Assembly: GCA_025642075.2 (NCBI GenBank) | Contig: JAODUO010000469.1 | Location: 172,001-236,000, forward strand | DNA: 64,000 nt | From: Ridgeia piscesae | Lineage: Eukaryota; Annelida; Polychaeta; Sabellida; Siboglinidae | Direction of reading: 5' to 3' | Shown: positions 29,621-59,500 of the stretch, piece by piece | How the letters are laid out: the number at the start of each line of letters is the position of its first letter | How positions within the stretch are numbered: the stretch's first letter is position 1 | Notes under the pieces: model-generated | Databases searched by the model: none | Seen by the model: only the letters and a program-made list of their open reading frames with translations | What the model was told of the DNA's origin: nothing | Program-made: the position numbers and the translations under genes

Positions 29621-29981
29621 ATGGATGAGATCATCATTTACAAGGCCCAGTACGACTACAACCCTAATGAGGATGAACTTAAGGAGGATTATCTCCCCAT
29701 CCAGGTGGATGACATTATCGAGGTCACCATGTCGCCCCAGTTCCCACAGGAGGGCACGGCCGAGAACCCCCAGGGCTGGCTGGAGGGGTTCAACCAGCGG
29801 ACCGGGAAGACGGGATACTTCCCGGGCCCATATGTCGAGTACGTCGAAAAGGTGCCGGCCGTGACTGCGCCACCTGTACCAGACCGGCCAGTGCCGAAGC
29901 CAAGGACATTGTCGAAGGGAAGCTCCTTGTCGGCGAAGACACAGATCGAGCCCGACGACTCCGGCTACGCCTCCCCCATGG
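29621..29981 (+). CDS. PIK3R1: Coding exon 1: SH3 domain and proline-rich linker
   Basis: Residues 1-120 plus one base (phase 1 donor, ATGG|GTGAGT). The SH3 carries the p85-specific features: the YKAQYDY strand, an extended insert before the [14 protein letters not shown] segment, and a [10 protein letters not shown] end equivalent to the FPGTYVEY of human p85. It is followed by a proline-rich stretch [13 protein letters not shown], a candidate SH3 ligand (as in p85's first Pro-rich motif). Local GC is much higher than in the flanks. The downstream intron is about 10 kb. Confidence 0.97.
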
Positions 29982-32900: not shown

Positions 32901-35900
32901 TGGGTATTTGCTTTAATTGGAATGGATCATTTGTTAAAGCTAAAAAGTTGCTGCATGACAAAGCGTCAAAGGCTATGTATTCACTCATATAAAAAGGCAG
33001 GAGACTAAGTCTACCAACTGATGTTATGCTTAAGTTATTTGACATGTGTGTAGAACCAATCTTATTGTATGGTTGTGAAGTGTGGGGATATGAAAATGTT
33101 GATATCCTGGAGAAAGTGCATACTAAATTTTGTAAATTCATCTTTGGAGTATCTTAAATTTTCCCATAATATGCCAATATATGGAAGAGCTAGGCAGATA
33201 CCCACTGTCGGTTACCATAAAGGAGAGAATGGTTTGTCATTGGACAAAACTATTAAAAAGCACCAATGAAAAACTTAATAAGGTCATGTACATAATCTTA
33301 TATAATCTTTATTGTAAAGATGTACATCTCTCACCCTGGATTAAATGTATTAGTAACATCTTTCAAACAAATGGCATTAATTATATTTGGTTAATGCAAG
33401 ATCATAACATTGATGCCAAGAGTATAAAGAAATGTGAATGTGATCAATTTAAGCAACTATGGCACAGTAGAATTACAAATGATAATAATATCGTGTATCA
33501 ACTATTTAAGATGTCGCATTGTAAAGAAATATATATCAAAATCCTTCCTGAACACTTAAAAAAGCATTATACCACTTCAGAATAGGTACACATAAATTAC
33601 CTGTTAATAACCAAACAAACTCCAACGTGCCTAGGAATTAGAGACTGCACCATTTGTGATGAAGGTGTATTAGGTGATGAAATTCATGTTTTATACAAAT
33701 GTACAAAGCTGCATGACCTGAGAACTAAATATATATCTTCATGTAATAGGAGGAGTGCATATGTACACAATTACATGCATGCTCATAACAGTAGTATAGC
33801 TGGTTAATTATTATCATGTTGTAATTATTCATATGTAGTGTTATGCATGTTCTGTATATGTAAATGTGTTTGAATGTAAAATTTTCTCATAAGGTTTCTG
33901 TAAAAAAATGTAAACTGACCGAGAAGATGAAACAATTAATGATTTGAACTATCAAGTCTGATTTGAACCATCCACCACCTGCAGGTGTTGTATGTTGTAA
34001 TATATAGGCCCTATACATTGTGTTGTAATGTAATTTTACATTTCTTAACCTATTTTTACTTTTACATGTAAGCAACCATGAGTCTGCTTCATATGTGGTG
34101 TTGAAATAAATTTGGTTGGTTGGTTGGTTGGTTGGTTGGTTGGTTGGTTGGTTGGTTGGTTGGTTGGTTGGTTGGTTGGTTGGTTGGTTGGTTGGTTGGT
34201 TGGTTGGTTGGTTGGTTGGTTGGTTGGTTGGTTGGTTGGTTGGTTGGTTGGTTGGTTGGTTGGTTGGTTGGTTGGTTGGTTGGTTGGTTGGTTGGTTGTT
34301 GTTGGTTGGTTGGTTGGTTGGTTGGTTGGTTGGTTGGTTGGTTGGTTGGTTGGTTGGTTGGTTGGTTGGTTGGTTGGTTGGTTGGTTGGTTGGTTGGTTG
34401 GTTGGTTGGTTGGTTGGTTGGTTGGTTGGTTGGTTGGTTGGTTGGTTGGTTGGTTGGTTGGTTGGTTGGTTGGTTGGTTGGTTGGTTGGTTGGTTGGTTG
34501 GTTGGTTGGTTGGTTGGTTGGTTGGTTGGTTGGTTGGTTGGTTGGTTGGTTGGTTGGTTGGTTGGTTGGTTGGTTGGTTGGTTGGTTGGTTGGTTGGTTG
34601 GTTGGTTGGTTGGTTGGTTGGTTGGTTGGTTGGTTGGTTGGTTGGTTGGTTGGTTGGTTGGTTGGTTGGTTGGTTGGTTGGTTGGTTGGTTGGTTGGTTG
34701 GTTGGTTGGTTGGTTGGTTGGTTGGTTGGTTGGTTGGTTGGTTGGTTGGTTGGTTGGTTGGTTGGTTGGTTGGTTGACCTGTTCACGTACAAGATACAAA
34801 GTATTTTATATAAATTTTCTCAAAAGAGAACCGTTGATATATAAAAATACAAAAGTCATAAAATATATACACAAATTTATCACATATTATTTGTCAGCAT
34901 AAACAAAAATATTTTTTATGATTCATGGTTATACACACATAATATAAAAAGTGCACAGGTTAATAAATAATTTATAAAATAATATTTACTTAATCTCACA
35001 TATCACATGCACACAATGAGCACATATTTTTGAAGTGGTTTGATTCTGCAGAAACCCACTTTCTATGCTATTAATATTACAAAATGTTTATGTAACACGA
35101 TTAGTGGGTTACATAAGATGATCTATAACTGCCTTATCGATCTGTGTGTGAGTTGCAACTGATCCAGCATCCAAGCACTGTCACTGTAGATCCAGGCATC
35201 GTCCAGGCATTGGTCGTAGACCCATAAAATAGAGTAGAATGTCACGAGTCAAACTGATAGACGGAATAACTGGATTACAGGCAGAATATCATGAATAGCT
35301 GCGACAGTCTGGCACAGCTCACTGAGTTATTGAAGGTGGGCAAGACCTTGCCGCAGTCATAAATCTCTTCTTAGTACTAAAATAACAATGGAAAGTGAAA
35401 ATATGCCTCATTAAGTTATTTTATGGTACAGCTGTATATAGATTATGGAAATATTATTTATGTTGGGTCATTAGCCTAAAACGTATTCTCCATGATTGCA
35501 AATGGTTATTTTTGTATACTCTCAGATGCACAGCATAGGCCAAATTAATGTCTTGTTTCTCTTTAATATGCTAACTTTGGTACATAAAAAGTGCATCATC
35601 TACCCGGGGTCCACTTTTGATGTTCATTCGCTCCATTGGAGCATCGGTCTAGACTTGACGTATCAGTTGATGTTGTAGCAAAAAACACAAAGAAATTATT
35701 TTGATTTGTTTCGAATTATTTAGTTTTTCGGCGGTCAAATCAAGCGATGTCATTCTACAGAATTGCCTGCTGAAATTACTAGGAAATTGTCAGCTTTGAT
35801 AGCTACAAATTGCAATGTTATGATTAGCAAGAGCAGATATTCAGTGGCATGTAAGCCTATGGAACTTTCCTGTAATTAAGAACTGAATCTGAAATAAACT

Positions 35901-37324
35901 TAGCTCTTAAACATGTGAATACCATGGTTACCACTGTTAATAAAATGAATTGTTTGTTCTCAAAGCCAACTGTTAAACATCACCGAAGTGCTGAAAGCAT
36001 TGCACACTTGTAGAAAGGTTTAGTCAAGATTTCTAAGCCCTTTTATAACTGATGTGAACTTGCTACTTTTATTACGGTGACCTGATATTCAGGACAGTAA
36101 TGTATCAACTGTTGTGTTTGTTCATGTGTTTACCTGTACTCGCAAGATGAGTTTGTAAGATATTGATGTTTCCCACTAAAATTTTCGTTGATACCATTGA
36201 ACAGCGAACAAATCTATCTGCTGATAAATCGGGTGTCCTTCAAATCGGTACGCTTGCTTGCACCAGTTTCCTTCTTCGGCTTACATAAGGTGGCTGGCTT
36301 CGATAACATTATGGTAAAAACTGTAAAAATGTAATATACTGAATTAAAAGTATGTGTTTTATTAAGTTTGACATTTGGAGTAGGGAGTTTGCTTTTGATG
36401 TGACCCACAAACCTGGTTCTTGACCAGGTCAGTGGTGATCAAGGCGGTGGTCAGTTCGCCTCATGTGACCCCAGATACCTTCCTGCATGTTTAACTTTGC
36501 TCTACTTCTTCTGCCCCACTGGGTCAGTCGGCTGACTGTCCAGCAATCAGTGGTCAGTCACGTGGTCAGTCATGTCCTGGCCATGTGGTTGCTGCCAGAT
36601 CAAACTGGACACTCGCTCCCATAATGCCCTTAGGTCAGCAGGTCACGGTCCACTGGAACCACCAGCTGACCACTGATAGATGAACTGACCAGTGATGGAC
36701 AAGCACTGGACTTGGCAGTGATCCTGTGGTCAGTTCCACTGAGCTTTGCCGGGGGTGTTCCTGTAAACTGACCAGGCCTATTGCTTCATGGAATAGACCA
36801 ACCACATCAGTAATGAACACGTCTTTGTGTGCACATAGGTATGTGCGTTTGTGCGTGCTACAATAGAACGCACGTGTACCAGGGACATGCGTACCTGTGC
36901 AGACATGTTAAATACCTGTAACGTGATCAGGAGTGTCATTTCTTTATAAAACGGCGCTCCTTGCTGAATGTAAATCAGCAATTCCAATTTTAATTGGCCA
37001 CAAATGTCCAGCAGTGCTGGTGGTCTTTTGTACTCGATGAATTCTGGTTCCAACAAGAGGCATTAGAGTGTCCCTGTCTATCTCATTTGAGTATGTTTAA
37101 TATTTTCCTTACCACAGTTAAATACTGATAATGTTGGTTTCACAATGAATATGGAAAAAATGTGGCAATGCCTTAGCATTTAGTGTGTAACCTGATAGTC
37201 CTATGACAAAAGGTGTGTAATTATGCTGTGTACATTCCTGTGTTTATTAGCAGGTAAAACAATGGTAGTTAAGTGGTACAGTCTTTCAACTGTTACTGGT
37301 TTGTTAATTCACAGACATCCTCTG

Positions 37325-37404
<80 letters not shown>

Positions 37405-40281
37405 TTTAAATTGATGTGGAAGACTTGAAGATGAAAACACATTTCATAGATGTGTTGACACCAGATCAGTCCAATCCAGTTCTAAGGCAATGTTTCAAAA
37501 AAATTAAGCCAATTGAAAATATTATTATCTAGATTTACATGTCATCACATAGCATATCAGGCTATATCAACTGATTTCATAGGAGACAGCAGTAGCTGTT
37601 TTGTGTTATACATTTATGCGTTTTTGCAAGAAAGTATTTATTTTCCATTTCGCAGATTTACAGACTTCAACTTGCAATACAAGCAGGTACCTGGTTTGTG
37701 TTATGACAACTGTAACTCCAACTCAAGAGTTTAATTTTTAAACTTTCAAGACAACAATGGGCGCATGTTATGTCAAACATACTGATACAGCACCTAAATT
37801 GGCAGCACAGACATTGGTGACTTGGTCATGGCAGATTGACCCACGACATCACAGCCAAGGATCTTGAAGTTTCAATAATGTAAATGTGAACTTCCAGAAT
37901 TAAAAGCACTCAATGCTGTCACTATCACAAGATATTCAAGATAAAAGCTTCAGATAGTAAACTGCAGTATGTGGATGCCTATACTTACATAAGGCCATAG
38001 GCTGTATCGGCTGGGACACATGGAGCAGGGTATCTGCATCTAGACTAAGTGGAAATCAATTGGTGCAGGGCACCTTGATGGATGAGCTGGTCCTGGCCAC
38101 TGCGGGACATTCAATTCTTTTGTCCCCAATCAATAGTATTGATCCAGCTGTGCTGACATAGTTATGGTGTCTACTGGTTGCAGGACATCAATCACTCTAA
38201 ATATAACTTGTCCCTGCTGCACGGTGCAACACCTTTCCTCACCAGTGTAACACCTTTGCTGACCATTGTAACAACTCTACTGCCCAGTGTAACACCTAAC
38301 AATAACCATGTAACACCTAGTGACCAATGTAACACTTGCAGCCAGTGTAGCATTTGCTGACTAGTGTAACTCTTCTACTGACTAATGTATACTTTTGATT
38401 ATCAATGTAACAGCGTTACAATGTAACAGTGTTACAATGTGACCAGCGTAACATATCTACTGACCAGTGTAACACCTCCCGTTACCAATGTATTACCTAG
38501 AATTATCTGTGAAACACATCGATTGACCACGATCTATTAACTAGTAACACAGCATTGGGCCAATGTAACACTTCCATGGAACAACATAACACTTCAAGGC
38601 TTCATTTAACCAATGCAAAACCTCTTCTCACCAACGCAACACCTCTAAATACCACTGTTACACTTCTAATGACAGTTATTATGTATCACCCCTCCCACTT
38701 ACTTCCCTAGAGTCAGTCTGTGATTGCTGGAGTGAAGATTACATAAGCCAGTGTCTAGGCACCATCTTAGAAGGAGCATTAACACATTTACTGCAGCAAT
38801 ATCTATGTAAACTCTGGCATGCCCTGGTAATACATACCGCGCACAGGACAGCATTACCATGAGTACTCCACATAATGTACAAGTTAAACCAACACCTCCT
38901 GTTTAGTGCTTTATGTATCTCAGCATTCAGCTGAGGTGTCAACTTACTGTGCAACCTGCATGTGGACTTGATAGTGTCACAGCTATCCTCCACAAACATT
39001 GACTTTATTTATGTATAGGCAACATTTGTATGTCATTCAATTTGGCAGAGTTAGGGCCATGGTTCACTTTTATGATTTGGTGATATCATCCAAGTAAGAG
39101 AAGTACACAGATTCGTGTGTCAGCAGAACTTACATTCCTGAAGCTTTTTGACTGTCGGACATGAAACAGAAACAGCGTCTTAAAATGAATGAACCCCAGT
39201 TGAGTGCAACATTTTGGGCATGAAGAGGATCAAGTAAGCAGATCAAATTGAACTGTGTAAAAGTCATTAAGAAAACATACAAGTATCTTGTTCAAACTTC
39301 CACATATCTTAGATATTTGACACATTACTCTTTAAAGGGACAGTGTGAATGTTCCTGTGAAGTTACTAGATCATACTACCTGCAAACTATGACTGTATGT
39401 AAAAATAGAACTGATGATTATCTGATCAGGGTGGGTAAATGCAACACCCTGATGACCTGATAACCCACTGTCCCTTTATAGCCATCTGCTGCACCTGGTC
39501 TGAGAATCTTTGTCAATTTTGAGCACAGTTTGGTTGGCCTGGCAGTGGCTGTGGCTTAGAACCAAGCGTAGTGAACGGACACCCACAGAATCTCAACACA
39601 CCCTACCAGACTCATGTTACACCATGATGATACAACTACTTATTAATAATCTATACAGACGTGCAAGTTGTAAGTAGATTCTGTGACAGTCACACACACC
39701 AAAGACAGTTGGATATCAGCAAGAATCTTGGCGTAAGTTTGAGCTGTTGTGACTCAGTTGATTGGCGAGTGTCAAATGGCGACAGCTCAATGGATTCAAC
39801 ACAGAAGGTTTTCTTGGGATTTTAGACAGAGGTTGAGTGTTGTTGGTGAGTGTTGTAGGTGAGTGTTGTAGGTGAGTGTTGTTGGTGAGTGTTGTTGGTG
39901 AGTGTTGTAGGTGAGCATTGTTGGTGAGTGTTGTTTCAAGTACTTTGTGGTTGTGTTCCAGCGTTCCAGAGACGTCATGCACTGACTGCCGTCTATGTCG
40001 TCTCACCAGTGCTGTGTGCCCACTGTAAGTAGAACACAGTCAAACCACTCTAATATAACAGTGTCACAGTAACCCTAGAATAGTGTCGCATTGTTTATAT
40101 AACTAAAGTATTGAAAACTAGTCACTAATAGGGTCACCTCAACATTCAGGTCACTTTTGCTCAGTCCCAAAGGTGACTGTAATAGTGGGGTTCCATTCTG
40201 TAATATCCCTTAGTAAGATGACGTCATATGTGCCACTGCCATGTGGTTGAAATCCATATTTTTGTGCCATGAAATTATGTG

Positions 40282-40352
<71 letters not shown>

Positions 40353-40391
40353 TATATATAGTATATATATATATATATTATATATATATAG

Positions 40392-40464
<73 letters not shown>

Positions 40465-43400
40465 GTATAGTAAAATTAGTTCTTAATATCAATCCATATT
40501 ATGTTTTTAATTTGTTAATCAGCCATAAATTCCTCTTCAGGTCATGTTTCACCATCTATAGGACCACTAAGTATTATGCCATCAAACAAGCTGCTGAATT
40601 TTTTTTAATCTGCTCTGTCTAAAATTGGTCTTTAATTTGTCATTCAGGCTTTGAAATGTGCAATGATCGTGTCAAAATGTAATACAGGTTTTTCTCTTGA
40701 GTCTTGAATAAAAAATGCACATTGTGTGGGGAAATTGATGTGTTGTCGCAGACCTGGAACATAGTGAGGATGAACCAGGCAGGGTTTGGTTCGGACTGAG
40801 GAGAATGCATCTGATATAGACGTGTGTTATGAACAGTAAATTTATGTCAGTGTTTAGACCCTTGTTTGTTTTGGCCAGGTTTCTGTCGATTGGTAGTTTT
40901 TATTGTTAACTTTGTGTCTGGTTATGTACAGAAGACGGTCACTGTACTAGTGCTTAAGGGTAGATTTACACAGTAGACAGTCATTGTATAAGTAATTATA
41001 TCACTTTTAATGTGATTTTTGATAGCTGTTATTGTGGCAGTGAATATAGTTTGTTGATTACAGACTAGAAATATAATTAGGACAAATGAGACATTGTGAA
41101 GGCTGTTATCCTGCATGTTAAAGTTAAAGAATCATGTGCATATCAATGGTCCAAATAGACCAGTTGGCATGATCACTTGGTGCAGGTAAATATGTCGAGA
41201 ACCTCTTATTTATCTAGACATCTTGCTTCAGACAAAACGGCAAAAAAGTTAACTTTGCAGTAGGCCACATAGTGTTGAGACAGGATCACAAGTACATCTT
41301 AGAACACTGCTGACATAACAGTGACCATTCGACCCCTCTCAGCGCCCCTAAGTTGTTCTAAGAAAATAGGAATACATGGATGCAATACACAATTAAATGA
41401 CACCAGTTTTCATTTGATTTTTAGTGTTTCTTATTTTATACCTATTCCAATTAACATCTACCCGGGTATTTCATAGCATAACAAAGGAGTATGTTTTGTG
41501 TGTATTTAGATATAATAAATTATGTTAACCTAAATTAGGGTTTTGCACAATAAAACATAATTGCTATATGACAACCATTGCTCAATAGGCAAACGTTTGG
41601 TTTCCGGTTTCGTTTTTAAACACATTCTATCATTTGCCAGCTGCTAATAACTAAACAATCTTCAGGTCATGTGTCAGATCAGAAATACCTTGGCCTAACT
41701 TTTCCATAAAGCTTAGTGATGACACAGCCACCCACAGGTAGTGTTACACAACCCTCCACCCACCCGCGCAATGGTACGACCCATGTCAATTAATTGGCCA
41801 ATGAGAAGGCGAGTTACCTCACAGCAATAAAGCCATCTGATTACCACATTGATTACTGAGTGTTTGCTGGCCCATCTAGCCAGTATCCATTGCCTGACCC
41901 AGTGACCGTGGCCCGGCCTGGTTATCCACTATACAGGACATCATTCATAGCAATTGACCACATTGCCATCCCACTTGAGTGACTGGACATAGTCCACTCT
42001 CTGGCAGTAGACTGACCGCCATCGGTTGCATGGTCGTGGGGTGTAGCTTCACTGGACACATGTGGATTTTACCAAGGATCGACATACTTGATTGAGGATA
42101 CTACAATACAGGCATCATTGCCTGCAATGAACATGATTGTTGCTGCTTGCTAATGTCATATCGTCTTCCTTTGCACAGGCAACGACTATATTTGGGGCAC
42201 GGGAAAAGTCGCCATGAGATGTGAGGGTAAGTGTTCACGCTTGCTGCACGATACTTTCATTTCGCACATGTAAAAAACACAGCGTATCATATCCAGGGTT
42301 TAGTGGTAGAAGTCGATAATCACTATGTTGTGTATTTTAGATAACTGGAATAAAACATCAGCGTGTTACTTGTGCCTGGAACGGCATGGGTCACTGCCAA
42401 CATTTCTTCAGTTTGCGTTATTTGCCGTCCTGCCATATCCTGCTGTAGCATAACTGGGCCATGTAATATAACTGGAGATTAATCATATTTTAGCATAATG
42501 CCTTTAGTTAAATGTTGAGATATTTATGTAATGTACCAAGTTGTTCAACCTGACATTAATTGTTTTCTTAGTTAATGTTATATTTTATTATGCAGACAAT
42601 TGGAGAATTATTAAAGTAAAATCAAATGTTAATCCTAATTTGTCTTTTCTCAAACTTGTTTACCATTTTATTTTTTTATTATGGTTTTGTTGGTTAATAA
42701 CTTACAAGGGTACTGTGAAACATACTCCTTGTGTCAGTATAACAGTTTTACTATTATTTTTTGAAATTTATATTCCTGCTATGGTTAATCTGTGTTGTAA
42801 TTACAACCACTGTGATTGTGATTACCAGTATATAAATTTATTTATTTATGTTTGTATGTAATTAGTTTGAGTAGGTTTGGGTCTCTACATAAAGCTATGG
42901 TAGTGGTACTCTTAAATAATCCTGCATGAACATATAGTAAGTGTATTATGAAGACTACAATTTCCCTGTTTAATGTGCAAAATAGTAATTATGTTATAAC
43001 TTATAATAATTTAATGGCTCCACGTGATTGTTGTGATTATACAGAAAAGAAGTAATAACAATATGAACTACAAAAAATTGTATTACTGTTGTAATAATAA
43101 TGCTAACTCACGACATTTGTCTGCATCATAAATCTGAAAATTGTAGCCTTCCAGGGGCGCATTACCGCAATAATAAATTTTTAAACATTAAAATATAAAA
43201 AACATCTGTATATTGCAAAAATAATCAAAAATAAATAAGTAGTATTAATGATAATAAAACTTAAATAATCATTCTTACTAGTATAATATGCTACATGTTA
43301 AACATATTAAAACAATTGGATACTGAAATGTCTTTACTATTGTCATTGTAAGTATTTGATTTGACACTCCCATGTCTGTCATGACAGACATGACGTCTGT

Positions 43401-46400
43401 TCTGTTGTCACATCTGTCATGATTACAGAAATACAGATTCTTACCCAGACAGACATAAATACTGGGTTGTGAAAGGTTATATTCTCCACTCAGACGGTGT
43501 TGTTTCATCTGCAGCATGAAACGTGACCATCTGTGACGTATTATGTGTTCTCTATGTCATTGTCATGCTATGTTTAGAAACACAGTTGATAGACATTTGT
43601 CACATCCCACATAAATGACAAAGTATAGACTCTTATGGTAAAGGTGTCCTAGTCCGTGTGTCATTAAGAGAGAGAGCATTGCATTTGGGGGACTATTAAT
43701 GGTTAAAGGTTATTGTTTTCAGTCGCGATACTGATACTTCTTTTAAAAAACATGACATCTTAATTCCTAAATCTGTGTGCACCTGTTTGGTTTTTAAATT
43801 GGCTGTGTGAAATACTTTTAATGCGGAATTCCCAGGTCATGGGCCGGTGTGTGATATACTAATGTTGTTAAATAGTCGCAACAGTTCGTGTCTGACATAT
43901 GATTCAATATTTTGTCCTAAAAATATTATTGATGATCAAATTTAAATACATTAATGTTTGTATAAATCAGTGTTAGACAATGAATTTTGAGTAATGATTA
44001 GTTAACTTGATTTAAGTTGTACAGTTGATCCAATTTTGAAATAATATATATAATTCTACGTAGAATAAAACTGTGCTCCAAATACACATGAAGTATTATT
44101 GTTTTAGTTACATTAATATAAAAAGTGTTATAGTTTTACCCTTACCATTTAAAGCCACACTTTCAAATAAAGCATGAAGTGGCCTACAATATATGCAGCA
44201 ACATAATAGTCTAAACTGAGCAGTTATGATTTGCAAAACCAATTCATACACATGCAAATGGCAAATTCATGCCAGATATGAGTCTAACTTAAAAATCCTT
44301 TCAGAAGGTCATTGTGTCTATAATCTGAAAGTGAACTGAGGGCAGTTGACGGTCTGTACTGAGATGGTCTCTCACAGCAGAACTGGCACAGTGTGAGAGA
44401 GGAATGAGGTGGTTCTTGGAAGCCACCTTGCCTTGCGTGTCATCCTGTTGGTCTCTTTCTCTACCCCAGATCTGACCATGATTTCATGGATTTAATCAAC
44501 TTCCACATACAACAGATGTTTAATTTGTCAGACGTTTCATTCATGAACATTGTCAGCGTCAGTGTGAGGTTAATTGCAATCACAGGTGTAGCACGCTGGG
44601 TGGTGCCAGCTATGTAGGTGTAAGTACTATAACACAATGTGTACAGGAATTGATCTGTGATTTACGATTTACTACATTTCATGTTTGGTGCCTGTGATTA
44701 ATTTACGTCAAATCATTACCCTGCTTATGTATCAGAAAACTACGAAATTTAATGTCAGTACACAATCGTAAGGAGTTAATGTAAAATGATTAAATTATTA
44801 CTTAAATAAGCTAGAATGTTTACACAAAGTGAACAATTAAGCTAATGTTTAACAAGATTATAAATTACAATATTCAGTGGCTTCAGTGGACATATGTGTA
44901 AGTCCAAACGTATTCCTTTACTGTACAACCTCAACATTTCTGCTGTGTACTGTTTTATAACTTACAAATATAATCATAAGGAACAGTGGCACCAGTTTGA
45001 CTAAATCTCGATGAGTTCTTTAACGCGAGCATGCATTGTAAGTTCAATAATTTTAATTACTGGTTAATGCAATTTGTTTTATTAATTACTAAAATGAATT
45101 CCACTACGGCGTATGTGATTTTGGCCAGTGCACAGCCAGCAGTAGAACGTCTTGTGTGTCTCCTGAGGGTACCTTGTGTGTCCTCACTCCGTGTCTCGCT
45201 GTAGGTTGCAGCCAGTGCTACCACATGGACGGTTGCCAGACACTGGTGATGTCAACGAACCAGGTGTGCAGTAGGTCGGAGAAAATCTCATCACCCGTCA
45301 CTTATGACGGAGAGATGGTAAGTGTGAATCACGACCTGTGTGTGCAATGTCATGTCACTAATCACGCCTGATCCAGGTAATTGACAGACCACATTAACCC
45401 TCTGTGGTTCCCGTAGTGTCTGTGTCGATAAAGTATTGCTGGGCACGCTAATGTGCAAGCCAGTTTTTCAGGGGATGTTTTTTACCAGCAACTGACAGTT
45501 ATTAGTTCTATTTTAGTCGCTGTGTAGGCTATGAAAAAGAAATTCCATGCAACGGACGGATGCTAGGCTGCTAGGCATTGAGAATGCTGACGTCAATTGC
45601 TTGGAAAGGTTTAGACTGGCAGGATTTGTGTTGTGTGGTTGTTGAGGTCAATATTTGTTTTGTAATTGTGATATGTTTTCTTTTAAACTTTCTCTGCAAA
45701 TAATTCGGTCCACAATGTCTGTTGATGTAAATTCCGTAATGTTTTATTAAAATAACTCATCTTGATCATCAGATTGAGTACCTTTTTAAGTGACTAACAT
45801 GACTGGACAGTGGACAGTGGACAGTGTTTCCATTTGTTGCCATATTTGACTTGGTCTTGTCAAAACTGACATACCTCCTGGGGGGTAGTAGTTAGTCTGA
45901 TATTTATTTCAAAATGAAATCAAATATGTCCACAAATGTAGCAGCGATCATGGTGTATATTGTTTAGGATTGATTTATTACAAAATGAGCCAAAACATGA
46001 CGAACAAATATGAATTGCAAAGGCATCATTAAATATTGCGTGCATTTCCTTATCTGCAGCCTGTTCAACAGTGGACAGTCACAAATGTACTGGAGTGGAT
46101 GGCATCAACCAACCTCTACAGATATGTAGAGCTTTTCAAACTACACAATATCACGGGTGAAGATCTGGTGTCCCTCAGTGATGATAAACTCAAGGTTGGT
46201 CAAACTTCATTATTATTTATATTTAAAAATCTATTTGCAGGCATTGTTATGATATAGCTCTGGTCTTGGTAATGACAGTTGTACTGTATCAGAAATGCTG
46301 TTATGCTTGATGAAAAATGAATTATTAATTTAATAAATGGTTGTAGCTTTGCAGCATTTTCATGATGGCGGAATAAGAACGCGACTTTGTATGCAAAATT

Positions 46401-49400
46401 ATATATGCTGTATTTTATTATATGGATAGATTGAACTTCATTCACCATGCTACTGTCTATGTGTGAACTTTGTTGTGCAGTTATGATCTAGATAACAATT
46501 TTGTACAAGCAGATAAAATATATTAAACCATCTGCACTTAGAACATGGTAGAGAATTGTGGATGAAGAATGCAGAATATTCAACAAAATTAAGAAACTGA
46601 AAGCAAATACTACATGTAGCATATAATAATAGTATACATACAGATATATGTATATATACATTTATATGTATATATATATATATATGTATATATAATATAA
46701 TGTTATATATATATATATATATATATAATCAACTATTTAAATGTGGTAGCCAAAACTAGTTATGTATGCTATGTCAAGTTATATTATAAATAAAGTCCCA
46801 AACTTTTATAGAGAAAGAACTATGACTTTCCTTTCTGATCTCTTTATCGTTGCAAACAGAGTAGATCATTCATGTCATTTGTAAACGTATCCAAATCCAA
46901 CCCAGAAACCTCTTGTTATAAGGATTTCTGATGTCAGTAATATCCACTTAAACAGGAATTATTCTGAAATTCCCATTTAGTCCAGCACTGTGCAATGAAC
47001 ATGCAGTACTGAGTATTTAAGGATAAATGTGACAATGAATGTCTCGACATGTTCCTGTAAGCCATTAATCTCAGGGACAATAATTTTATGGCTGTCAGCA
47101 CTGAATGAAGCTTACCATGCTGACATGGGCCGGAGTCTTTTTAAACTGCACAGTGCCGGTGGAAGAGTCGCGGCTACTTTTGATATGTTCCCCCACAGAA
47201 CTATGCCCACTTGATATGCAGCGAACTGTGATGAAATCAATGCTGATTTAATATACGTTGGCCTGGGCTTGAAAAGGTTCCGTGTACCCCCATAGTACCG
47301 AATATCCATTTACGGAAACCAGGAGTTAGTAAGATGATAATTATTATGTTTTGGTATGTTGATTAATGTAAATATTTAAATAAAATACACATCTGAGTCT
47401 CTTTCAGGTAGTGTACCTAAATAAATATTTTGAGAATTATTATTGAATTATTATGTATACTTAGTGAATAGATAAATGCACTAAAATGCTAAATATGATT
47501 GACTTTTAATCAGATAATGTTGTATACCTAGTTTGAAGTAACCATGTGTTCGTATGACCTGACAAGATCAGCAGTGTACTAAATCTGCCAGAGCTTACTT
47601 GCATAAACCTGAGCTGGTATGAAAGGCGAATTGATCCCATAGTGTGACAAATAGGTGGTCGACTCCATGTAATAATCAATTATGCGATGCTCCCTAGAGC
47701 TGTCCTCACGCATTGCTTAAGCCGGACTCAGGTCAATAAGTTGTTCGGTGCAGTAATAAGAACGAACAGATATTACAACTTAGACGTTTGACGCGGAGTA
47801 TTGCAGATGTTGGCACTACTAACTCATCTGAAACTTACACATTTAGTCAATATTTCTCAATTCTTTTGTGGTATTTCTTACACAACAGCTTGTGGACACT
47901 TGCCAAGATTTCATGCTGGTAATAATTATGTAAAATAGAGTCCAATGACAGTTAATGAAGAAGATTTGCTTATGGTATGGGAGAGGATGCCATGGGAGAT
48001 ATTTACATTGACATTTTATACAGTTGTAAGGATTCAGCAGTTCTACAAAATTATCATACACAATGTCATCTTTTTATTTTTAAACTTGGAGATCAATATT
48101 ATAAAATAAGGAAACGTTGCTGATTTGAAGTTTCTTTGAACTAATATTCTTACACTGAATTGCTGGCATATATCAGGTTCACAAATGTAAACATCATTAA
48201 AGTAGAAACTGCAATCGACACTTAGAAGTCCAAAATGACCTATTTACTGTAGCACAATTTATGTTCATCCTCAAATTATAAACCACTTCACTATTTTGTA
48301 TATGTTTATAACAGGTTGTGTAGATACAGGTAGGTTACACATTTTGGTCTCCTTTTAACGTGGTAAATAGGATTTCAAGAGGTAAATGAAACTGAATTGG
48401 TTGCAATTGCAATGAGACTCAGACAATGTCAGTTGCTGTAGTTTAGTCCTTGTGTGTCCTGGTTACTCACTGAGTGTCCTGGTTACTCACTGAGGGTCCT
48501 GTTTACTCACTGAGTGTCCTGGTTACTCAGTGAGGGTCCTGGTTACTCACTGAGTGTCCTGGTTACTCACTGAGTGTCTTGGTTACTCACTGAGTGTCCT
48601 GTTACTCACTGAGTGTCCTGGTTACTCACTTAGTGTCCTGGTTACTCACTGAGTGTCCTGGTTACTCACTGAGTGACCTGGTTAGTCACTGAGTGTCCTG
48701 GTTACTCACTGAGTGTCCTGGTTACTCACTGAGTGTCCTGGTTACTCACTGAGTGACCTGGTTACTCACTGAGTGTCCTGGTTACTCACTGAGTGTCCTG
48801 GTTACTCAATGAATGGATCTTTCATGGATGTATTTCTTTATTATAGGAAATGAAAATCAGTGACACGTTCCATAGACTGGCCATTCTTGTGTGTATTGAC
48901 GTCTTGTGTGCGCGGCAAAGTGACCTGGTGAGTTATACATCCATCAAAGTAACTTTACACAGAGTGCTAACAGGCATATCTTATTTATGTTTGCGTATTT
49001 AGTGTTATAAGTACAAAATACAGAGCTACTAAAATACAATTACAATAAGGTAACTTTTTGTAATTAAATCCATGGAAATCATGACCAGAGGTGTATCAAA
49101 GTATAAGTTGCTGCTCCAATGTAATTTATGCTTGGCAGTCCCCAACGTCTTTCTTCATGCCTAGATTTATCTGTTGGGTGAAATTGCATTAGTTCTAGGT
49201 GGATTATCCTGTCATGAAAGAGGGATCATAGTTAATCCAGCCATTGCCCAGGAGGTCGACCCAGTGACCTATCCATCTGTAGTATGTGTGTCAGAAATGA
49301 CAGATGTAGGTCACTTCTGACATAACTGTCAGCCTCCAGGAAGCTGGCAATGCCAGGCTGTGTGGCTACAGTCCACACAAACTCCTGTTGCTTGTATCTG

Positions 49401-52400
49401 TTACAGTTGACTGGCTGCTCTGGTGGTTGTATAGTCTTTTCCATTTGTTCACTGATTGAATGTGAATGGCAAACGTAGCGCATGGGCTACACAGTACATC
49501 CGTGTCATATTCTGTCGTAAAAAGTAATATTAAATTAAGTGATCAATAAATCAACTTTTCAGGTAATTTTATTTTCAACACATTTGGTCAGAGTCACATC
49601 ATGGAGCAACATCTATATAAGTTCAGAGTAGATAGTGATGTCTCTGTGGTGTGTACTGTATGTACTGTCATGTGAGTGTGATGTCTATGTACTGTGTGTA
49701 CTGCAGCCAGTCATGTGAGTGTGATGTCTATGTACTATGTGTACTGCAGTCAGTCATGTGTGATGTGTGTGTACTGTGTGTACTGTAGCCAGTCATGTGA
49801 GTGTGATGTCTGTGTACTGTGTGTGCTGCAGCCAGTCATGTGAGTGATGTTTTTTGCAGCAGCCACACAGTAGTCTGCTGCCCCCCTCAGAGACGCCACT
49901 TGACAACCAGAGTGAGTCAGCTCTCTTTGTATATACTCTCAACATTTTCCATAATCTGTTCCATACTTTACCGTTGTTAATTCATTCCTGCCATGTCTCC
50001 TTCATCCTATGTAAAATTGAACCAATCATTTACATAATTCACTGTAATGTGTGTCATCCTATACTGTATTGTCATACTGTAGGTACAGGAAGGAGCATTT
50101 GAAGGTTTTGGGAGCAAAACATACTTTTAACCATTTTGTTCGTTTTGAAATAAAGTCACTTGTTATTCATCCTTCAAGTCTAGATACTGCTGCTTTTGTC
50201 ACCGTGTGTCTGCAATGCTTGTTCTGTCATCCCAGACTGCGTCAAGACGGAACATGCACTGGTCGAGTACAACTTTCCCAGCATGCAGCGGTGCCAGCTG
50301 TGTGACAGGTTCCTGTGTGGCCTGGTGCGGCAGGGGCTGCAGTGTACAGGTGAGTGGCAAGGGTCAGCGTTGTGGTGCTGTTTTGTGCAATTATTTAGTT
50401 TAAGATGTGTTCATGTATTTTAGCTACTCTGATGTGTATGAATATGTGTGTGGGTGTTTTATAAGTGTGAATTGATTTCCATGTGCACTTGCTTGACTAG
50501 TTGTATGTAATAATAGTTTGCTGAATTACCTTTGGTGGTCTTCAGACACTATCATGCATTTTACATGTAAACGTTGTTAAATTTGTTAAAGAAATAAAAA
50601 CACATTTTCCTTGTAGTGTAGTACCTTTAAAATGCATTGTGTGATTTTGTCTAAATATTTTATTATCTGACCTTTTAAGTTTCACTGTCAGTGTGTTTGT
50701 GGCATGGATAGTTTCGTCTCAACTACCATCAACCAGTGAATATAGAACAAACAAATGAACAAACAAATCAACCATAGAAATGTTGATATCACAGCGGTGT
50801 TGTATAAATGTCAACCACTGACGAATGTTGCAGAGTGTCATCTGTGTTGTATAAATGTCAGCCACTGGTGGGTATTGCTGTGTGGTCTGTGTTGCAGAAT
50901 GTGGTCTGTGTTGTATAAACGTCAACCACTGGCGAGTGTTGCAGAGTGTGGTCTGTGTTGCAGCGTGTGATCTATGTTGCAGCGTGTGATCTATGATGCA
51001 GCGTGTGATCTATGATGCAGCGTGTGATCTATGATGCAGCGTGTGGTCTGTGTTGTAAATGTCAACCACTGGTCTGTGTTGCAGCGTGTGATCTATGTTG
51101 CAGCGTATGGTCTATGTTGCAGCATGTGGACTGTGTTGCAGCGTATGGTCTATGTTGCAGCATGTGGACTGTGTTGCAGCATGTGGACTGTGTTGCAGCG
51201 TGTGATCTGTGTTGCAGCGTGTGGACTGTGTTGCAGCGTATGGTCTATGTTGCAGCATGTGGACTGTGTTGCAGCATGTGGATTGTGTTGCAGCGTGTGA
51301 TCTGTGTTGCAGCGTGTGGACTGTGTTGTAAATGTCAACCACTGGTGGGTGTTGCAGCGTGTGATCTGTGTTGCAGCGTGTGGTCTGTGTTGCAGCGTAT
51401 GGTCTATGTTGCAGCATGTGGACTGTGTTGCAGCATGTGGACTGTGTTGCAGCGTGTGATCTGTGTTGCAGCGTGTGGACTGTGTTGCAGCGTATGGTCT
51501 ATGTTGCAGCATGTGGACTGTGTTGCAGCGTGTGATCTGTGTTGCAGCGTGTGGACTATGTTGCAGCGTGTGGTCTATGTTGCAGCGTGTGGACTGTGCT
51601 GCCATCGCAAGTGTTCAGCCAATGGCCTTCCACGATGTAACACGAACAGTACAGTGAACAGGAAAAGAGCCAGCTTCCTCGTCAGTAAGTATCTCATTTC
51701 TCGCAACTTCTTCAAAAACGTGCACCACGGTATCCTTGTCAGTTAAGCACCACTTGACAAATATTTATATTCTTTCTCAAAGAAATTTCATTTTGTAACA
51801 GATCACATTCGAACAATCGCTGCTGTAGAAAAACAGAAACTTTATCAAGGTCTAAGAGTAGTTGTGCTGTGCTGTGCTGCAGGTTCAGTATTTGGTGGCA
51901 AGTTGTCGGTAGAAGACATCAGCTCCAGTCAGCAGGCACCACTTGTTGTAGAGATGTGTGTCCAGGCCATTGAGGCACGCGCCAAACAGACAGGTGAGTG
52001 ACACGATCATTTGAATCACATCAACTTCTTTGATTATGTACATCAAGGTTTTAATTTCCTGTACAAGCGTGAAGAGGAGTAGTGTGTTCCCAGTAAATTG
52101 TGTTGTGATTAAGTTGACTTAACAAGTTGTGTTGTTATTAAATTAACTAGACACTAAGGAAAAATAATAGCGTTGGGATAGTTATTATGTTATGATTGTC
52201 AGGTAGCAGTGCTCTTAAGTAATAATTTTAATATTTTGAAAAATAAATTACCATATCACTAAAGATACAAAACAGAGAAATATCAACATTGATACATACA
52301 TGTGTGCATACACGTGTTTAGCATTTAGCAATTAAACTGTGTTGCTCAACTCCTTAGCTGTAACTTTACAGAGCAGGTTATGAAACACCAAACATTCCAG

Positions 52401-55400
52401 CTGTCTTCATACTGGACATTGTTTACTGTTGTTCGTAGGTTCTGATTTATTTGAGACATACAGAATAAGTGTTTCATCTGACGAGGTGAGCCAACTGAAG
52501 GTGGCCATCAATTCAAGTAAGTCTTCAATTTGTCTTTCTCCCTAATAACAACAAAATTGTCTATCCTATGTTAATTGTTCCTCATTGTACACAATCTATA
52601 GTACTAAATACTTCTTTTGGTTGACGTGGTAAGCGTATTTGAAATAACACCAAATGTTCCTGTGCACAGTGAGAGAGTCTACTTCCATACATGTTGGCTG
52701 TATTCTCTACAAAACAATTTATATTTTTATGATTTTTGCACTGTCTTACGCAAATCTAATGGCTAACCAGTTATCATGTTTGCAATTACTGTATTTCATC
52801 AATTGATTTATTGTAATGTTGTGCTTTAATTTTGTGTTCAAATATTAGAAAAACTTGATAATTATTTCACATCCAATGCCACCCATTCATGGGAATCTAT
52901 CTGCCTGTGCCGTCACGAAAACGTAAAACACAATCTGCTGCAGAAATGTAGTCAGCTAGATGATGTCATTTGTCCCTAACTGCAGTCGGTGGCTTGGTAT
53001 GCAATGCAACTGTCCAATGGTTTGTTTGTAGGCTATCCAGACGAGGTGAACATGGATGACTATGAGTTACCAGTGATAACAGGAACACTGAAAAAATATC
53101 TGCATGAACTTGTCGACCCCGTGATTCCAGAGAACATGTATCATCAGTTCATTGACACAGCCAGTGAGTGTCTCTTATAAGTATCAGTTGTATGAATATA
53201 GTATAAGAAAGAGAGGATGGATTATGTTTGGGGGTTTTATTAAATCATATTTCACACACAGTGAAATAGAGAAGGCCGTGCAGTTTCAAAATGCTTTCTC
53301 CATTTTTAATTATTATTTTGCCAAAGATTTCTCAGCCTAAAGTATCATTTGATACCCAGATAACTAGTATTGCATGCTGTTTGGTTATCCTGCTGGGTAT
53401 ATGCAGCAAGTACATTAAATAACAACTAAAGACACCGTTGGTACATCTGTATGTACAAATAGTTTTATTACACATTGCATGAAAACATATATAACATTTA
53501 GCCTTGGCAGAAGAAATGCAAACAATCTATGAACAGATTTGTGGCTCAATTAAAACACTAACAAAAATACATTATGCAATTTTGTAGGGTGCTTTCCTTT
53601 GCAGCATAGTCGGCCGACTTTCTAATGGCTTTGTACTATCTTTATGTTTTGTAGACTATCAACAACTTGCACAGCATCAGATTGGTTAATAAGATAGAAC
53701 AATTACAATTTCTATAGCAAAATGTTGAGGTAATTGCAGTGCACGTAGAGCTGAGATATGGGTAATATTCACGTAGTGTTTTCTGTACAAAATGTTGAGG
53801 TAATTGCAGTGCATGTGGGTAATATTCACGTAGTGTTTTCTGTACAAAAGCTGTACACCTGCTGCCCCTCCGCAGTAGTTCACCCAGTGCCTGTGGTTGC
53901 AGAAGTGTCGGACAATGACCAGTGCAAGGCGGGGCTGAAGCTGCTCCTGGAGAAGTTACCCGCGCCCCACAGCAGCACCCTCGCCTACCTGATGGCGCAC
54001 TTCTGTCGCGTCTGTCAGCACCAGGACGTCATCGGCATCAACGACCCTCCCATCAGACTCCTGCAAGTCTTCTCCTTCATCCTCATGCGACCGCCATGGG
54101 AGCACATCATGTGAGTTTATGTCACTCAGGGAGCACATCACGTGAGTTTATGTCACTCAGGGAGTACATCATGTGAGTTTATGTCACTCGGGGAACACGT
54201 CATGTGAGTTTATGTCACTCGGGGAACAGGTCATGTGAGTTTATGTCACTCAGGGAACACGTCATGTGAGTTTATGTCACTCAGGGAGCACATCATGTGA
54301 GTTTATGTCACTCAGGGAACACATCATGTGAGTTTATGTCACTCGGAACACGTCTTCTGAGTTTATGTCACTCAGGAATACGTCGTGTAAGTTTACGTCA
54401 CTCAGGGAACACATCATGTGAGTTTATGTCACTCAGGGAACACGTGTGAGTTTATGTCACTCAGGGAACACATCATGTGAGTTTATGTCACTCAGGGAGT
54501 ACATCGTGTGAATTAATGTCACTCAGGGAACACGTCATGTGAGTTTATGTCACTCAGGGAACACATCATGTGAGTTTATGTCACTCAGGGAACACGTGTG
54601 AGTTTATGTCACTCAGGGAACACATCATGTGAGTTTATGTCACTCAGGGAACACAACGTGTGAGTTTATGTCACTCAGGGAACACGTGTGAGTTTATGTC
54701 ACTCAGGGAACACATCATGTGAGTTTATGTCAATCAGGGAACACATCATGTGAGTTTATGTCATTCGGAACACGTCTTGTGAGTTTATGTCACTCAGGAA
54801 CACATCATGTGAGTTTATGTCACTCAGGGAACACATCATGTGAGTTTATGTCACTCAGGGAACACATCGTGTGAGTTTATGTCACTCGGGGAATACAATG
54901 TGTGAGTTTATGTCACTCAGGGAACATGTCATGTGAGTTTATGTCACTCAGGGAACACGTCGTGAGTTTATGTCACTCAGGGAACACATCGTGTGAGTTT
55001 AGGTCACTCAGGGAACACATCATGTGAGTTTAGGTCACTCATGTGAACTGAGCTATATTTACTCTGGGAATACGCCATGCCTAACGTTTATGTCATTCTG
55101 GCTTGAGCTAGGCTAGAAACTGGTTGAATCTGTCTGACAACTCAGCAGTGTTTTGGTTACATTATTGATTGAGGCTCTGTGGAGATTGTATCCAGTCGGC
55201 CCATTCACACCATTACACAGAGCAACTAAAATAATAATACAAGCACCTTTATATATGAGTTAGTACCTGGTTATTCATTATTATTTATGACCACAGTTCA
55301 CTGCACACAGACAGCACAATGCACATAATGTCACAGTAGAGATACTGCCAGCGTCCCATGTGACAACGCACGTAACAGGACAATCCTCGCCTTCTGGCTA

Positions 55401-56509
55401 AATATGTCAAGAGAAGAAAATTATTTTGCTATTTCTGGCTTACACTGGTGTATTTATAGTTGACACTTAAGAAATGGATATCCTATTTGAGGCAGTTTTA
55501 GACGACTTACGAGAAAGACCCAGTCCTGATTATGTCCGCTTGACCTTTGTCATTTGGGAGTAATGGTCGCTACGTGAAGGTTGTGAAGGCTGGTAAAAAA
55601 TCCCTGCTATTATTAGTCCTGATACATTGGCAGGTGACTTAAAGGTCTTTTCAGGTGTGGCAGTTATGGTTTTTATTACATGATTGGATTATGTTGCAAT
55701 GTTGCGGGGTTAGATTTATTGATATTATTGTGAGTGTGATTTTTGCAGTGTCAATGCCTGGTTTCCGGGCTCCTGCTTTATTGGTATTGCTTGTATACAA
55801 ACTGGTGGTTGGTAGTTAGCAGCGTCATAAAGCAGCACAGTGTGAAGGACACAATCCTTCGAGGAGGACAATCAGAACCTTTGTGTAATATCGGGACACT
55901 GTCATAGGAAACAAACGGTGGTTTTGCTGTTTAAAAAAATTATGTAATGACGGTTTATGTTTAATGACAGATTTTTGTAAGTGCTGATCATTGTAGTGTT
56001 ACAGTGTTCTGGTCTTAGTGTGTCACCTACCTAGTCGTCAGTGAAAGATGGTACAGTACATAAAGCTACATTAATCTTTGCTCTTTTTTATATCACAGGC
56101 CTGTCTTTTGACATTTTATCTGAACAGCTAGTGTGTGTTAATAAATCACCAGCGCGAGGTACACCTTGAGGCTAAATGCGGCTCAACAAAACCATACAAT
56201 CCATCGCGGTGGTAGATCTTGATCAGCGTGTTGCTGCCTCCCTTCCTGGAAATGACAAATGCACACGTTTAAGTGGTAAAAAATCCATGTCGCAGGGTCA
56301 CTGCAATTGTGTAAAAGGCACAGTGGTGGCGCCACACAGTGGACAAAAAACATATGAATACACTGTATTATAACTTGCAGTAGTAATAGTGTTATCTAAC
56401 TGCAAATCATTGACAAACATTGACCACTAACAATGTTAAAAGGTCTCTCTTGAGTGCACTATTGTAGAGGAGATGTTTCACATGCTTTATATATATTATA
56501 TATAATAAT

Positions 56510-56572
<63 letters not shown>

Positions 56573-59500
56573 TTGTTTATCCGTCATTTCCCTGTCTGCC
56601 GTGTGTGTACCACGTGGACTGTGAGTGATGTTGATGACCGTGTGGTTTCAGTGACATCGTCCACAACACAGAGTACCACATCCGCACCCTCGAGGTCCTA
56701 CTCAGGTCATGTGACTGGGGCGAGAAACTGCCAAAGTACATGGAGGCCCCTGGTAGGTTAAGGTGTTCCTTTACTCTAAAGAAACCTTTACTTTTAATTT
56801 GGTTTTATTACATCTTTGAAATTGTTCACATCCATTACATATTCCAGTCCATAAAATTCCATAATTTTACTGTAACAACACTAGCTTTACGGATTATTCC
56901 AAGAGAAGTCTAGATGACGTTCAGGTGAACAGGTCTGCAAGTGAGTAAAGTGTAAAGTGCTTTGAGTAATCGTGAAGATAGGCTACTGCACTTAATTTAC
57001 CCTTATGTCACACATATAATGCAAAAAATTGCAATTTTTAACCCCACAAAATGCAATTTTTTATTATTGACACCACAACAGGACTAAACTATTGCACATA
57101 TTCTGAAGATGTTCAAAAGTTGAGCTGTTGTCTCCGGTCACGTTGCAGTGATCCCGCCTCGTGTCACCCGGAGGGGACAACAAGGTCGCGCCTCAATTGA
57201 CGTACAAACCCCTGTGATCAGTACAAGTACTGAGCCACCCTCGTTCACAAACAGCGAGAGTTCACAGAACCTACAGGACGCAGAGTGGTACTGGGGCGAC
57301 ATCTCCAGGTATGTTCACAAACCCTAATTTGGAATAATGCATACAGTTATTTATGGGGTTGCATTTAGTGGATTTGGCAAGTGTTGAATATTATTTCTGC
57401 ACTGGTCACAACATTGTAGATGTTGAACGACATGTATGAAATGCCACCAGTAAAATCATAGTATGCGTTTTCTTTTTCTGGTACTGTAAGTCTTGTTGTA
57501 TGCACAGTTTGCATTGAGAATAAATGTTGTAAAAACTGTCTGGTTTTAATTCCCCAGATATTGAGCTACAAAATATACCTTGTGTATTGAAATTTCTTCA
57601 ATAGTGTATGATTTGTTTAAAAAAATTATCAGTAATACGCAAAATTTGGAGAAATGAGATAATTTAGACTCATATTGTCTATAGTTTTGTTAGTATATGG
57701 GTTCATAAATGCATATATTTTATTAATTTGGGTTTGTTCCTCAAGGAAATTAACCTGGAAATTGAAAGATTACGTTAGAAGGTACCAGTGGTAGGCAGTT
57801 TAGCTAGGATCATAAAATTGGTGGATGACAATCAAACTAGTTATCTTTGGATTCTATCTATGCGAGTTTATATCAAGTTTGCTGTGGCAAGTCATATGTT
57901 AGTACACACATTAATATGGAACATTCTACAACATCTTTGTTTCCAGTGTCTAAATCAAAGTCCTTAATCTGAGTCTTGTGAGCCAGATTTACCAATACCC
58001 CATTCACACTAGCAAATTTAAACCGGTTTCGCACCCATTGAGCATTCACACTTCAAAATCTAAACCGGTTCAGTGAGTTGAACGGGATTAAACTAATCTG
58101 CCTCCTCGAGGTGATTTTGAACCGGTTTAGTTTTGAACCGGTTCAGATTGTTAGTGTGAACGCAAAGGGGATTAGCGCCAAGTTGCACTAACTTTGACCT
58201 AATTAATGCCACATGTTGAGGCCGGTGATGGTTGGCCAGTCTGGGCTCTTAGCATCACTTGACCTAATTAATGCCCCGCCCAGTTGCACCTCTAAGTCAT
58301 TAATCAAAAGAAACCGATTAGTGGATGGAAACTACCCCCACTCTGGCTTCTGTAGTGTGAACGGGTCGAGTATTTGAACCGGCTCAGTTAATGCGCATTA
58401 ACTAAGCCGGTTCGAAGCGTGTTTGTAGTGTGAACGGCGTATTTGTGATTAAACGTGTGGGGTTGTGTCATTAGGGAGGAGGTGAACGAGAAGTTACGAG
58501 ACGCGCTGGACGGAACATTCCTGGTACGGGACGCATCGACGAAGGCCCAGGGTGACTACACACTCACACTGCGGTCAGTGCTGCCACCTGTTGTCTTGCA
58601 TCCATAAGAGCTTATAATGCTGTGTATAACGTTAAAGATAGTATAGAGTAGTAAAGGATAGCAATGTAGTTAATGGTAGCAGTTTAGGAAGTAGTATAGC
58701 ATAGCAAAAACAAATTATAAAGGAGGAATGATATTGACTGCATTTAACTTTTTTGAGAATGGACAGAATTGTTTTTAGATATTTTGTTTTGAACAGTATT
58801 ACATTTGTTGTTGGAGGGAGATATTTTTGTGCCAAAAAATCAAATTTTTCGTTTTGGATAATGGTGCATAGTTTATATTCGGCTCGAATGTACATCTTGA
58901 TCTCTTCTCATGTGTCTTGTGTGACTGTGTTAGTAGACGTGTGCGTTTGTCATTTCCAGGAAGGGAGGTAGCAATAAGCTGATCAAGATCTACCACCGCG
59001 ACGGATTGTACGGTTTTGTTGAGCCGCTTCGCTTCAAGACAGTAGTGGACCTCATTAACCACTACAAGCGACACTCCCTCGCACATTACAACAAGACCCT
59101 CGATACAACGCTCAAGTACCCTATCTCACGCTTCATCAAGGTCAGTTATTGGCTCAACTCCATGTCATGCTCAGTCTGCACTTGGTGTAATTTTGGAAGG
59201 TCCACACAGAAGTTGAACAAAATGTGTAGTAGTCAACAGTGATTTTCTAATGAAATAATCATGTCATGTTGCAAGATCATCATTTTGTGAACGTATTCAT
59301 TTAATATGGAATATTACCTAAAAAATGCAATAATGTTTTATTCAGACACTGTAACTAGATCTTTTGACCTTAGCTGTTTTTTTTCGATTTTTTTATAAAG
59401 GCTGCTTTCCCATAAATTTAACAAGATCTATCAAAACGTTAAGTCTGTACATTGAAGAATTGTATCATATGGTGAGGTTGTCAAATGTGTTGAGGCAAAT

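Follow-up and report, generated by a model that had tools for sequence, protein, structure and literature searches.

A p85-type phosphoinositide 3-kinase regulatory subunit gene of Ridgeia piscesae with a predicted C1-SAM-C1 block between SH3 and BH

A gene for a p85-type regulatory subunit of class IA phosphoinositide 3-kinase (PI3K) was predicted in a 64,000-nucleotide stretch of the genome of the annelid Ridgeia piscesae (assembly GCA_025642075.2, contig JAODUO010000469.1, positions 172,001 to 236,000 of the forward strand; hereafter the window, whose first letter is position 1). The gene lies at 29621-63386 on the + strand and has 22 predicted exons with 3,015 coding bases including the stop codon, which encode 1004 amino acids in a single open frame; 21 of its 21 introns are of the GT-AG type. 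The encoded order is SH3, C1a, SAM, C1b, BH (the RhoGAP domain), nSH2, iSH2 and cSH2. The reading that we favour, with confidence slightly above even, is that of a complete p85 in whose SH3-C1-SAM-C1-BH front SAM and BH would link the p110 kinase to partner proteins, without reliance on the sensing of diacylglycerol (DAG), and whose C1-SAM-C1 block is probably at least as old as the protostome ancestor. The nSH2-iSH2-cSH2 back half would be the standard part that holds p110 and reads phosphotyrosine. SAM is predicted to provide the main added surface for docking or self-association and, together with BH, would likely bring the kinase to its partners, and the two C1 fingers appear to be non-canonical.

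In a Pfam profile search of the joined protein, with scores set against the curated cut-offs, C1_1 (cut-off 26.5 bits) was matched twice, at 31.7 bits by C1a, where the match begins at profile position 9, and at 41.9 bits by C1b across exons 7-9. SAM_2 reached 57.3 bits (cut-off 20.5) across exons 5 and 6, RhoGAP (PF00620) 91.3 bits at residues 375-505, before nSH2, and PI3K_P85_iSH2 (PF16454) 125.7 bits at residues 718-869 (cut-off 31.5), flanked by two SH2 stretches, nSH2 and cSH2. All of these were above their cut-offs; among three SH3 models, SH3_2 passed its own (Table 1), and SH3_9 and SH3_1 fell below theirs. The best solved relative of the window protein is p85alpha (446.6 bits), whose residues 6-103 align with the SH3 region and whose residues 128-721 align with window residues 375-997. 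Human p85alpha has SH3, BH, nSH2, iSH2 and cSH2 in identical order, but its aligned SH3 and BH stretches are separated by 24 residues, with no C1 and no SAM, compared with 270 in the window protein. The predicted gene is thus classed as encoding a class IA regulatory subunit of PI3K in its complete form, with p110 binding presumed from the iSH2 and SH2 sequence.

The distribution of this architecture was examined by a protein search with residues 118-400 (the block and the start of BH), a region that detects carriers of the block. Among 562 candidates, 18 homologues (P0001-P0018) were found at E <= 0.001. They share C1_1, SAM (SAM_1 or SAM_2), RhoGAP and iSH2 with the window protein in 18/18 cases and SH2 in 17/18, and an SH3 model was matched at E <= 0.001 in only 3. 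The species named include Lingula anatina, eight molluscs (Gigantopelta, Haliotis rufescens, Lymnaea, Batillaria, Bradybaena, Biomphalaria, Solemya and Octopus sinensis) and, in four rows, insects (Nilaparvata lugens, two Gryllus and Onthophagus). In a midpoint-rooted tree the window protein groups with P0001, P0004 and P0007 (support 99/98), apart from the molluscs, Lingula and the insects, a position that suggests a spiralian outside the molluscs as the source.

An earlier note on the window, made from its letters alone, had suggested a search for such invertebrate relatives and had supposed that automated annotations of them may exist; the 18 block-based matches, with annotations among them, agree with both. 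The same note knew of no description of the architecture, a view that the annotated homologues and two papers overturn. Class IA regulatory subunits with C1 in Mollusca, Cnidaria and Ichthyosporea, and with SAM in Mollusca, Arthropoda and Choanoflagellida, were already reported in 2015; the section concerned gives them a RhoGAP-SH2-iSH2-SH2 back part with C1 or SAM in front, and is itself silent on domain order, C1 number per protein and residue analysis (Philippon et al., 2015; PMC4617754). In 2025, two C1 and one SAM, the same set as in the window protein and missing in human p85, were reported for Penaeus vannamei PI3Kp85alpha, and the authors speculated about a virus-specific role for the extra domains (PMC12817958). 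Since the set also occurs in Lingula, molluscs, insects and the window, it is more probably a general invertebrate feature than one specific to shrimp viruses. The C1-SAM-C1 p85 is therefore an already known kind, to which the present analysis adds the precise exon structure, a complementary pair of non-canonical C1 fingers, the constraint on SAM and the resemblance to chimaerins.

Exons 2-9 (39962-51684) amount to 705 nt and encode C1a, SAM, a linker and C1b, with a phase-1 intron on each side of the block. The canonical splice sites and compatible phases claimed for these eight exons were confirmed, all four junctions named earlier (29981-39962, 45317-46060, 48927-49860 and 51684-51883) being in frame on GT-AG sites; the codon for a zinc-ligand Cys of C1a is split across the exon 2/3 junction. 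The spliced protein has a single occurrence of the strict zinc motif of C1 (H-C-C-C-C-H-C-C), at residues 291-340, and translation of the window in all six frames without splicing gives none; the complete C1b motif therefore depends on the join of exons 8 and 9. P0001, a protein of 1005 aa from a 3,682-base contig, matches 22/22 exons, with 916 of 1001 aligned residues identical and gaps of 4 and 3 residues in all. The same protein takes up 33.8 kb in the window, so the P0001 contig probably represents spliced RNA from a close relative. The Pfam scores, the 22-exon model and P0001 together bear out a p85-type subunit with C1-SAM-C1 between SH3 and BH. It could be argued that the C1 and SAM exons form a gene of their own inside the p85 locus, or that their join to p85 is a prediction artefact, and the 10-kb intron between the SH3 exon and C1a would fit such a view; however, P0001 runs through all exons, in 18/18 homologues, several of which come from genomes with annotation, C1 and SAM are in one protein with RhoGAP and iSH2, and the intron phases match on both sides of the block. 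A nested gene or an artefact is thus hardly credible and was rejected on the splice sites and phases of the gene model and the P0001 match. Use of the block as an optional cassette, with a main product that skips exons 2-9 and resembles vertebrate p85, is improbable as well: P0001 includes the block, and no skipped form was seen in a search whose region, being the block itself, was unable to reveal one. The frame would survive the skipping of 705 nt between two phase-1 introns, the exon pairs for SAM (0-0) and C1b (1-1) are symmetric too, and judging from these phases a vertebrate-like SH3-BH isoform could be produced.

Four non-zinc residues, Pro241, Gly253, Gln257 and Gly258 of the PKCdelta C1B domain, are given as strictly conserved wherever a C1 domain is sensitive to DAG (Katti et al., 2022; PMC9110374). 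The matching positions in the window read P-G-V-A in C1a and M-G-Q-G in C1b. Residues were counted over 19 rows, the window and its 18 homologues, which contain kin (two Gryllus, three pulmonates) and are therefore not 19 independent cases; P0003, P0016 and P0018, which are without the C1a start, were retained, and P0016 reads oddly there, its C1a letters being uninformative. In C1a, Gln was present in 0/19, Pro in 16/16 readable rows and Gly253 in 18/19; in C1b, Pro was present in 0/19, and both Gly and the Gln in 19/19. No row of the 19 had all four residues in one finger, be it C1a or C1b. At the position of the membrane-inserting Trp, C1b has Tyr, Arg, Cys, His or Phe in 19/19. All eight zinc ligands of C1b are at canonical spacing, and C1a has a longer last spacing and, in both the window protein and P0001, an additional residue that separates His from Cys. 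The pattern is common to insects and spiralians and is therefore likely old.

According to the earlier note, the two C1 fingers could bind DAG and, with clustering by SAM, bring PI3K to membranes rich in DAG without the need for phosphotyrosine. Both fingers do exceed the Pfam cut-off, C1b combines its full set of zinc ligands with the QG motif and hydrophobic loop residues, and the best solved relatives are PKC C1A for C1a and PKC C1 domains for C1b. The PKC C1 domains nearest to C1b bind DAG. Each finger, however, lacks a different residue of the DAG-sensitive set, which makes such recruitment quite unlikely, and the replaced Trp and the extra residue between two zinc ligands of C1a also speak against it. 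DAG recruitment as the main mechanism was rejected on the incomplete residue set of both fingers, which are predicted instead to be structural, to bind protein or to make general contacts with acidic lipids.

The constraint on the modules was compared by mean pairwise identity, which over all usable pairs (29 to 171) was 0.74 for nSH2, 0.63 for C1b, 0.61 for SAM, 0.57 for cSH2, 0.50 for BH, 0.47 for iSH2, 0.46 for C1a, 0.35 for SH3 and 0.25-0.36 for four linkers. Between insects and spiralians (3 of 4 insect rows and 7 of 15 spiralian rows, giving 21 pairs unless stated), the values were 0.69 for nSH2, 0.62 for SAM, 0.51 for cSH2, 0.44 for C1b, 0.43 for C1a, 0.40 for BH, 0.37 for iSH2 and 0.24 for SH3 (12 pairs). 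SAM is thus conserved about as well as the SH2 domains between these groups. Within the block, conservation lies in the domains, since its two linkers reached 0.16 and 0.19 (21 pairs each); other linkers gave 0.19 (one pair) and 0.30 (14 pairs). The nearest solved relatives of SAM are the SAM domains of liprin-beta, CNK2, neurabin and aveugle, which are docking SAMs. From this conservation and these relatives, docking by SAM is taken as the main added function. Clustering driven by SAM may occur as well. An AlphaFold2 model of P0001, built from an 18-row alignment, had a mean predicted local distance difference test score (pLDDT) of 76.8 and a predicted template modelling score (pTM) of 0.46. 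Block means of pLDDT were 80-88 for C1a, 84-91 for SAM and 67-83 for C1b, and RhoGAP, SH2 and iSH2 were mostly above 75. SAM was modelled as five helices at residues 201-260, and the folds of C1a, SAM and RhoGAP are predicted with confidence.

The BH domain of the window scores 78.9 bits with alpha-chimaerin, 77.0 with beta2-chimaerin, 63.8 with ARHGAP15 and 48.8 with the BH of p85alpha. Residues 279-551 (C1b and BH) align in one stretch with the C1-RhoGAP tandem of beta2-chimaerin (124.8 bits), and in the list of 50 structures for the model of P0001 all but the chimaerins (ranks 43 and 49, root-mean-square deviation > 11) are p85 entries. In alignment A1 the Arg (R31) and Lys (K69) columns are invariant in the window, two chimaerins and p85alpha. 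These likenesses would suit a front half that is a chimaerin-like GTPase-activating (GAP) module for Rac/Cdc42 (C1b-RhoGAP) fused to a p110 adaptor, switching Rac off while activating PI3K. We take Arg, Lys and Asn to be the catalytic residues of RhoGAP, and the Asn of the chimaerin 'AENL' stretch to be the catalytic one. This Asn is replaced in the window protein as it is in p85alpha, with two extra residues after it, and C1b alone is closer to PKC C1 domains than to the chimaerin C1, which makes such a GAP module unlikely; the identification of C1b as a chimaerin C1 in particular was rejected for the latter reason. The BH of human p85 is not known to have GAP activity. Against a particular link with chimaerins, the BH of p85alpha is itself about equally near to myosin-IXb (58.6 bits), ARHGAP15 (57.2) and chimaerin (56.7).

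A common origin of p85 C1-BH and the chimaerins is plausible from the sequence comparison. The chimaerin order, SH2-C1-RhoGAP, is not that of the window, where SH3-C1-SAM precede the C1-RhoGAP tandem, and chimaerins are not known to have an SH3, SAM, iSH2 or C-terminal SH2 pair. One literature query linking chimaerins and p85 evolution gave no match to all terms, a result that holds for that query alone. Tentatively, and with more doubt than belief, it may be proposed that every animal p85 BH descends from a chimaerin-like C1-RhoGAP ancestor and that invertebrate p85 keeps the ancestral SH3-C1-SAM-C1-BH front. The two C1 fingers would then be a conserved complementary pair (a Pro half and a Gln half), neither sensing DAG alone, that forms a composite or repurposed docking surface beside a SAM whose conservation is close to that of the SH2 domains.

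For the favoured reading, in which SAM and BH dock p110 and the block is old, the presence of the block in spiralians and insects probably places its origin no later than the protostome common ancestor. The description of the block as inserted in the earlier note is therefore doubtful. If the non-bilaterian tallies of 2015 are homologous, loss in vertebrates would be the likelier and simpler history, a judgement based on those published tallies. Several points weigh against this reading. With three of the four DAG residues present in C1b, weak DAG binding by this finger or by the pair could occur. The relative placement of domains in the P0001 model is unreliable at its pTM, and the identity of SAM does not separate polymer, heterodimer and monomer. 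The homologue search was able to detect carriers but not p85 without the block, so that its counts apply to carriers. Vertebrate loss is weakened by the section of the 2015 paper on these subunits, where the choanoflagellate and ichthyosporean proteins are without the p110-binding domain, no SAM is listed for Cnidaria, and the cnidarian and ichthyosporean proteins carry an extra SH2 (PMC4617754). Such an SH2 would also fit chimaerins, and a gain of the block in protostomes instead of a loss in vertebrates is possible.

Textbooks describe p85 from the vertebrate protein. If the fuller form is older, PI3K models from vertebrates, and likewise from Drosophila, would lack docking modules still in use in other animals, and a virus-specific role of the extra domains in shrimp would be less probable. 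The complementary loss of residues in the two C1 fingers leads to a clean and testable prediction of lost function.

Table 1. Predicted exons of the p85-type gene, with positions in the window; phases and identities to P0001 where available.
Feature	Position	Strand	Content
Exon 1	29621..29981	+	SH3 and proline-rich stretch, residues 1-121; SH3_2 22.7 bits (cut-off 21.8); 101/121 identical to P0001
Exon 2	39962..40024	+	C1a, first part; GT-AG, phase 1-1; 18/22 identical to P0001
Exon 3	42179..42226	+	C1a, middle; 16/17 identical to P0001
Exon 4	45205..45317	+	C1a end and linker; 33/38 identical to P0001
Exon 5	46060..46194	+	SAM, first part; phase 0-0; 40/45 identical to P0001
Exon 6	48847..48927	+	SAM, last part; phase 0-0; 26/27 identical to P0001
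Exon 7	49860..49911	+	Linker; phase 0-1; 18/18 identical to P0001
Exon 8	50236..50349	+	C1b, first part; 38/39 identical to P0001
Exon 9	51586..51684	+	C1b, last zinc ligands; 33/34 identical to P0001
Exons 10-13	51883-51993, 52439-52516, 53032-53163, 53903-54110	+	BH/RhoGAP domain; RhoGAP Pfam match, chimaerin and p85 BH in PDB
Exons 14-15	56652-56752, 57149-57308	+	BH end, proline-rich linker, nSH2 start
Exons 16-17	58475-58573, 58960-59140	+	nSH2; SH2 match at residues 612-687
Exons 18-20	59584-59706, 60507-60625, 61200-61376	+	iSH2, p110-binding coiled coil
Exons 21-22	61982-62236, 63182-63386	+	cSH2 and stop codon; second SH2 stretch, aligns to p85alpha C terminus

Elsewhere in the genome (628 Mb, 4875 contigs), at least 14 C1 matches were found at E <= 0.001, with 150 of 184 candidates scored; none of the matches listed lies in the window, an absence probably due to the introns that interrupt the C1 domains there.

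Several repeats were noted in the window. Intron 8 contains a 19-base minisatellite of 34 copies (50936-51602), whose unit copies the exon-9 acceptor and first codons. At 50898-51586, 30 TTGCAG acceptors were listed, 11 of them in phase and 10 of those open, including the real one at 51586, and the array is a possible source of aberrant splicing. A 31-base minisatellite at 54098-55041 starts from the end of exon 13 and repeats the exon end and donor in 25 close copies. The seeding of minisatellites by splice junctions is not a rule in this gene, a close copy in the same intron being found for 2/42 junction 24-mers and 45/377 random intron 24-mers, without enrichment. An inverted copy of 58934-59027, a stretch with the acceptor and the beginning of exon 17 (nSH2), lies 2.7 kb upstream in another intron, at 56178-56271, and is 93% identical over 94 bases. 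Tandem arrays at 3262-5892 (26-base unit), 9914-11998 (17-base), 25243-28807 (32-base) and 34112-34776 (4-base) take up a large share of intron 1 and of the sequence that precedes it. Two open frames, at 13136-13567 (+) and 20880-21245 (-), resemble by eye C-terminal pieces of a reverse transcriptase of the long interspersed nuclear element (LINE) type.

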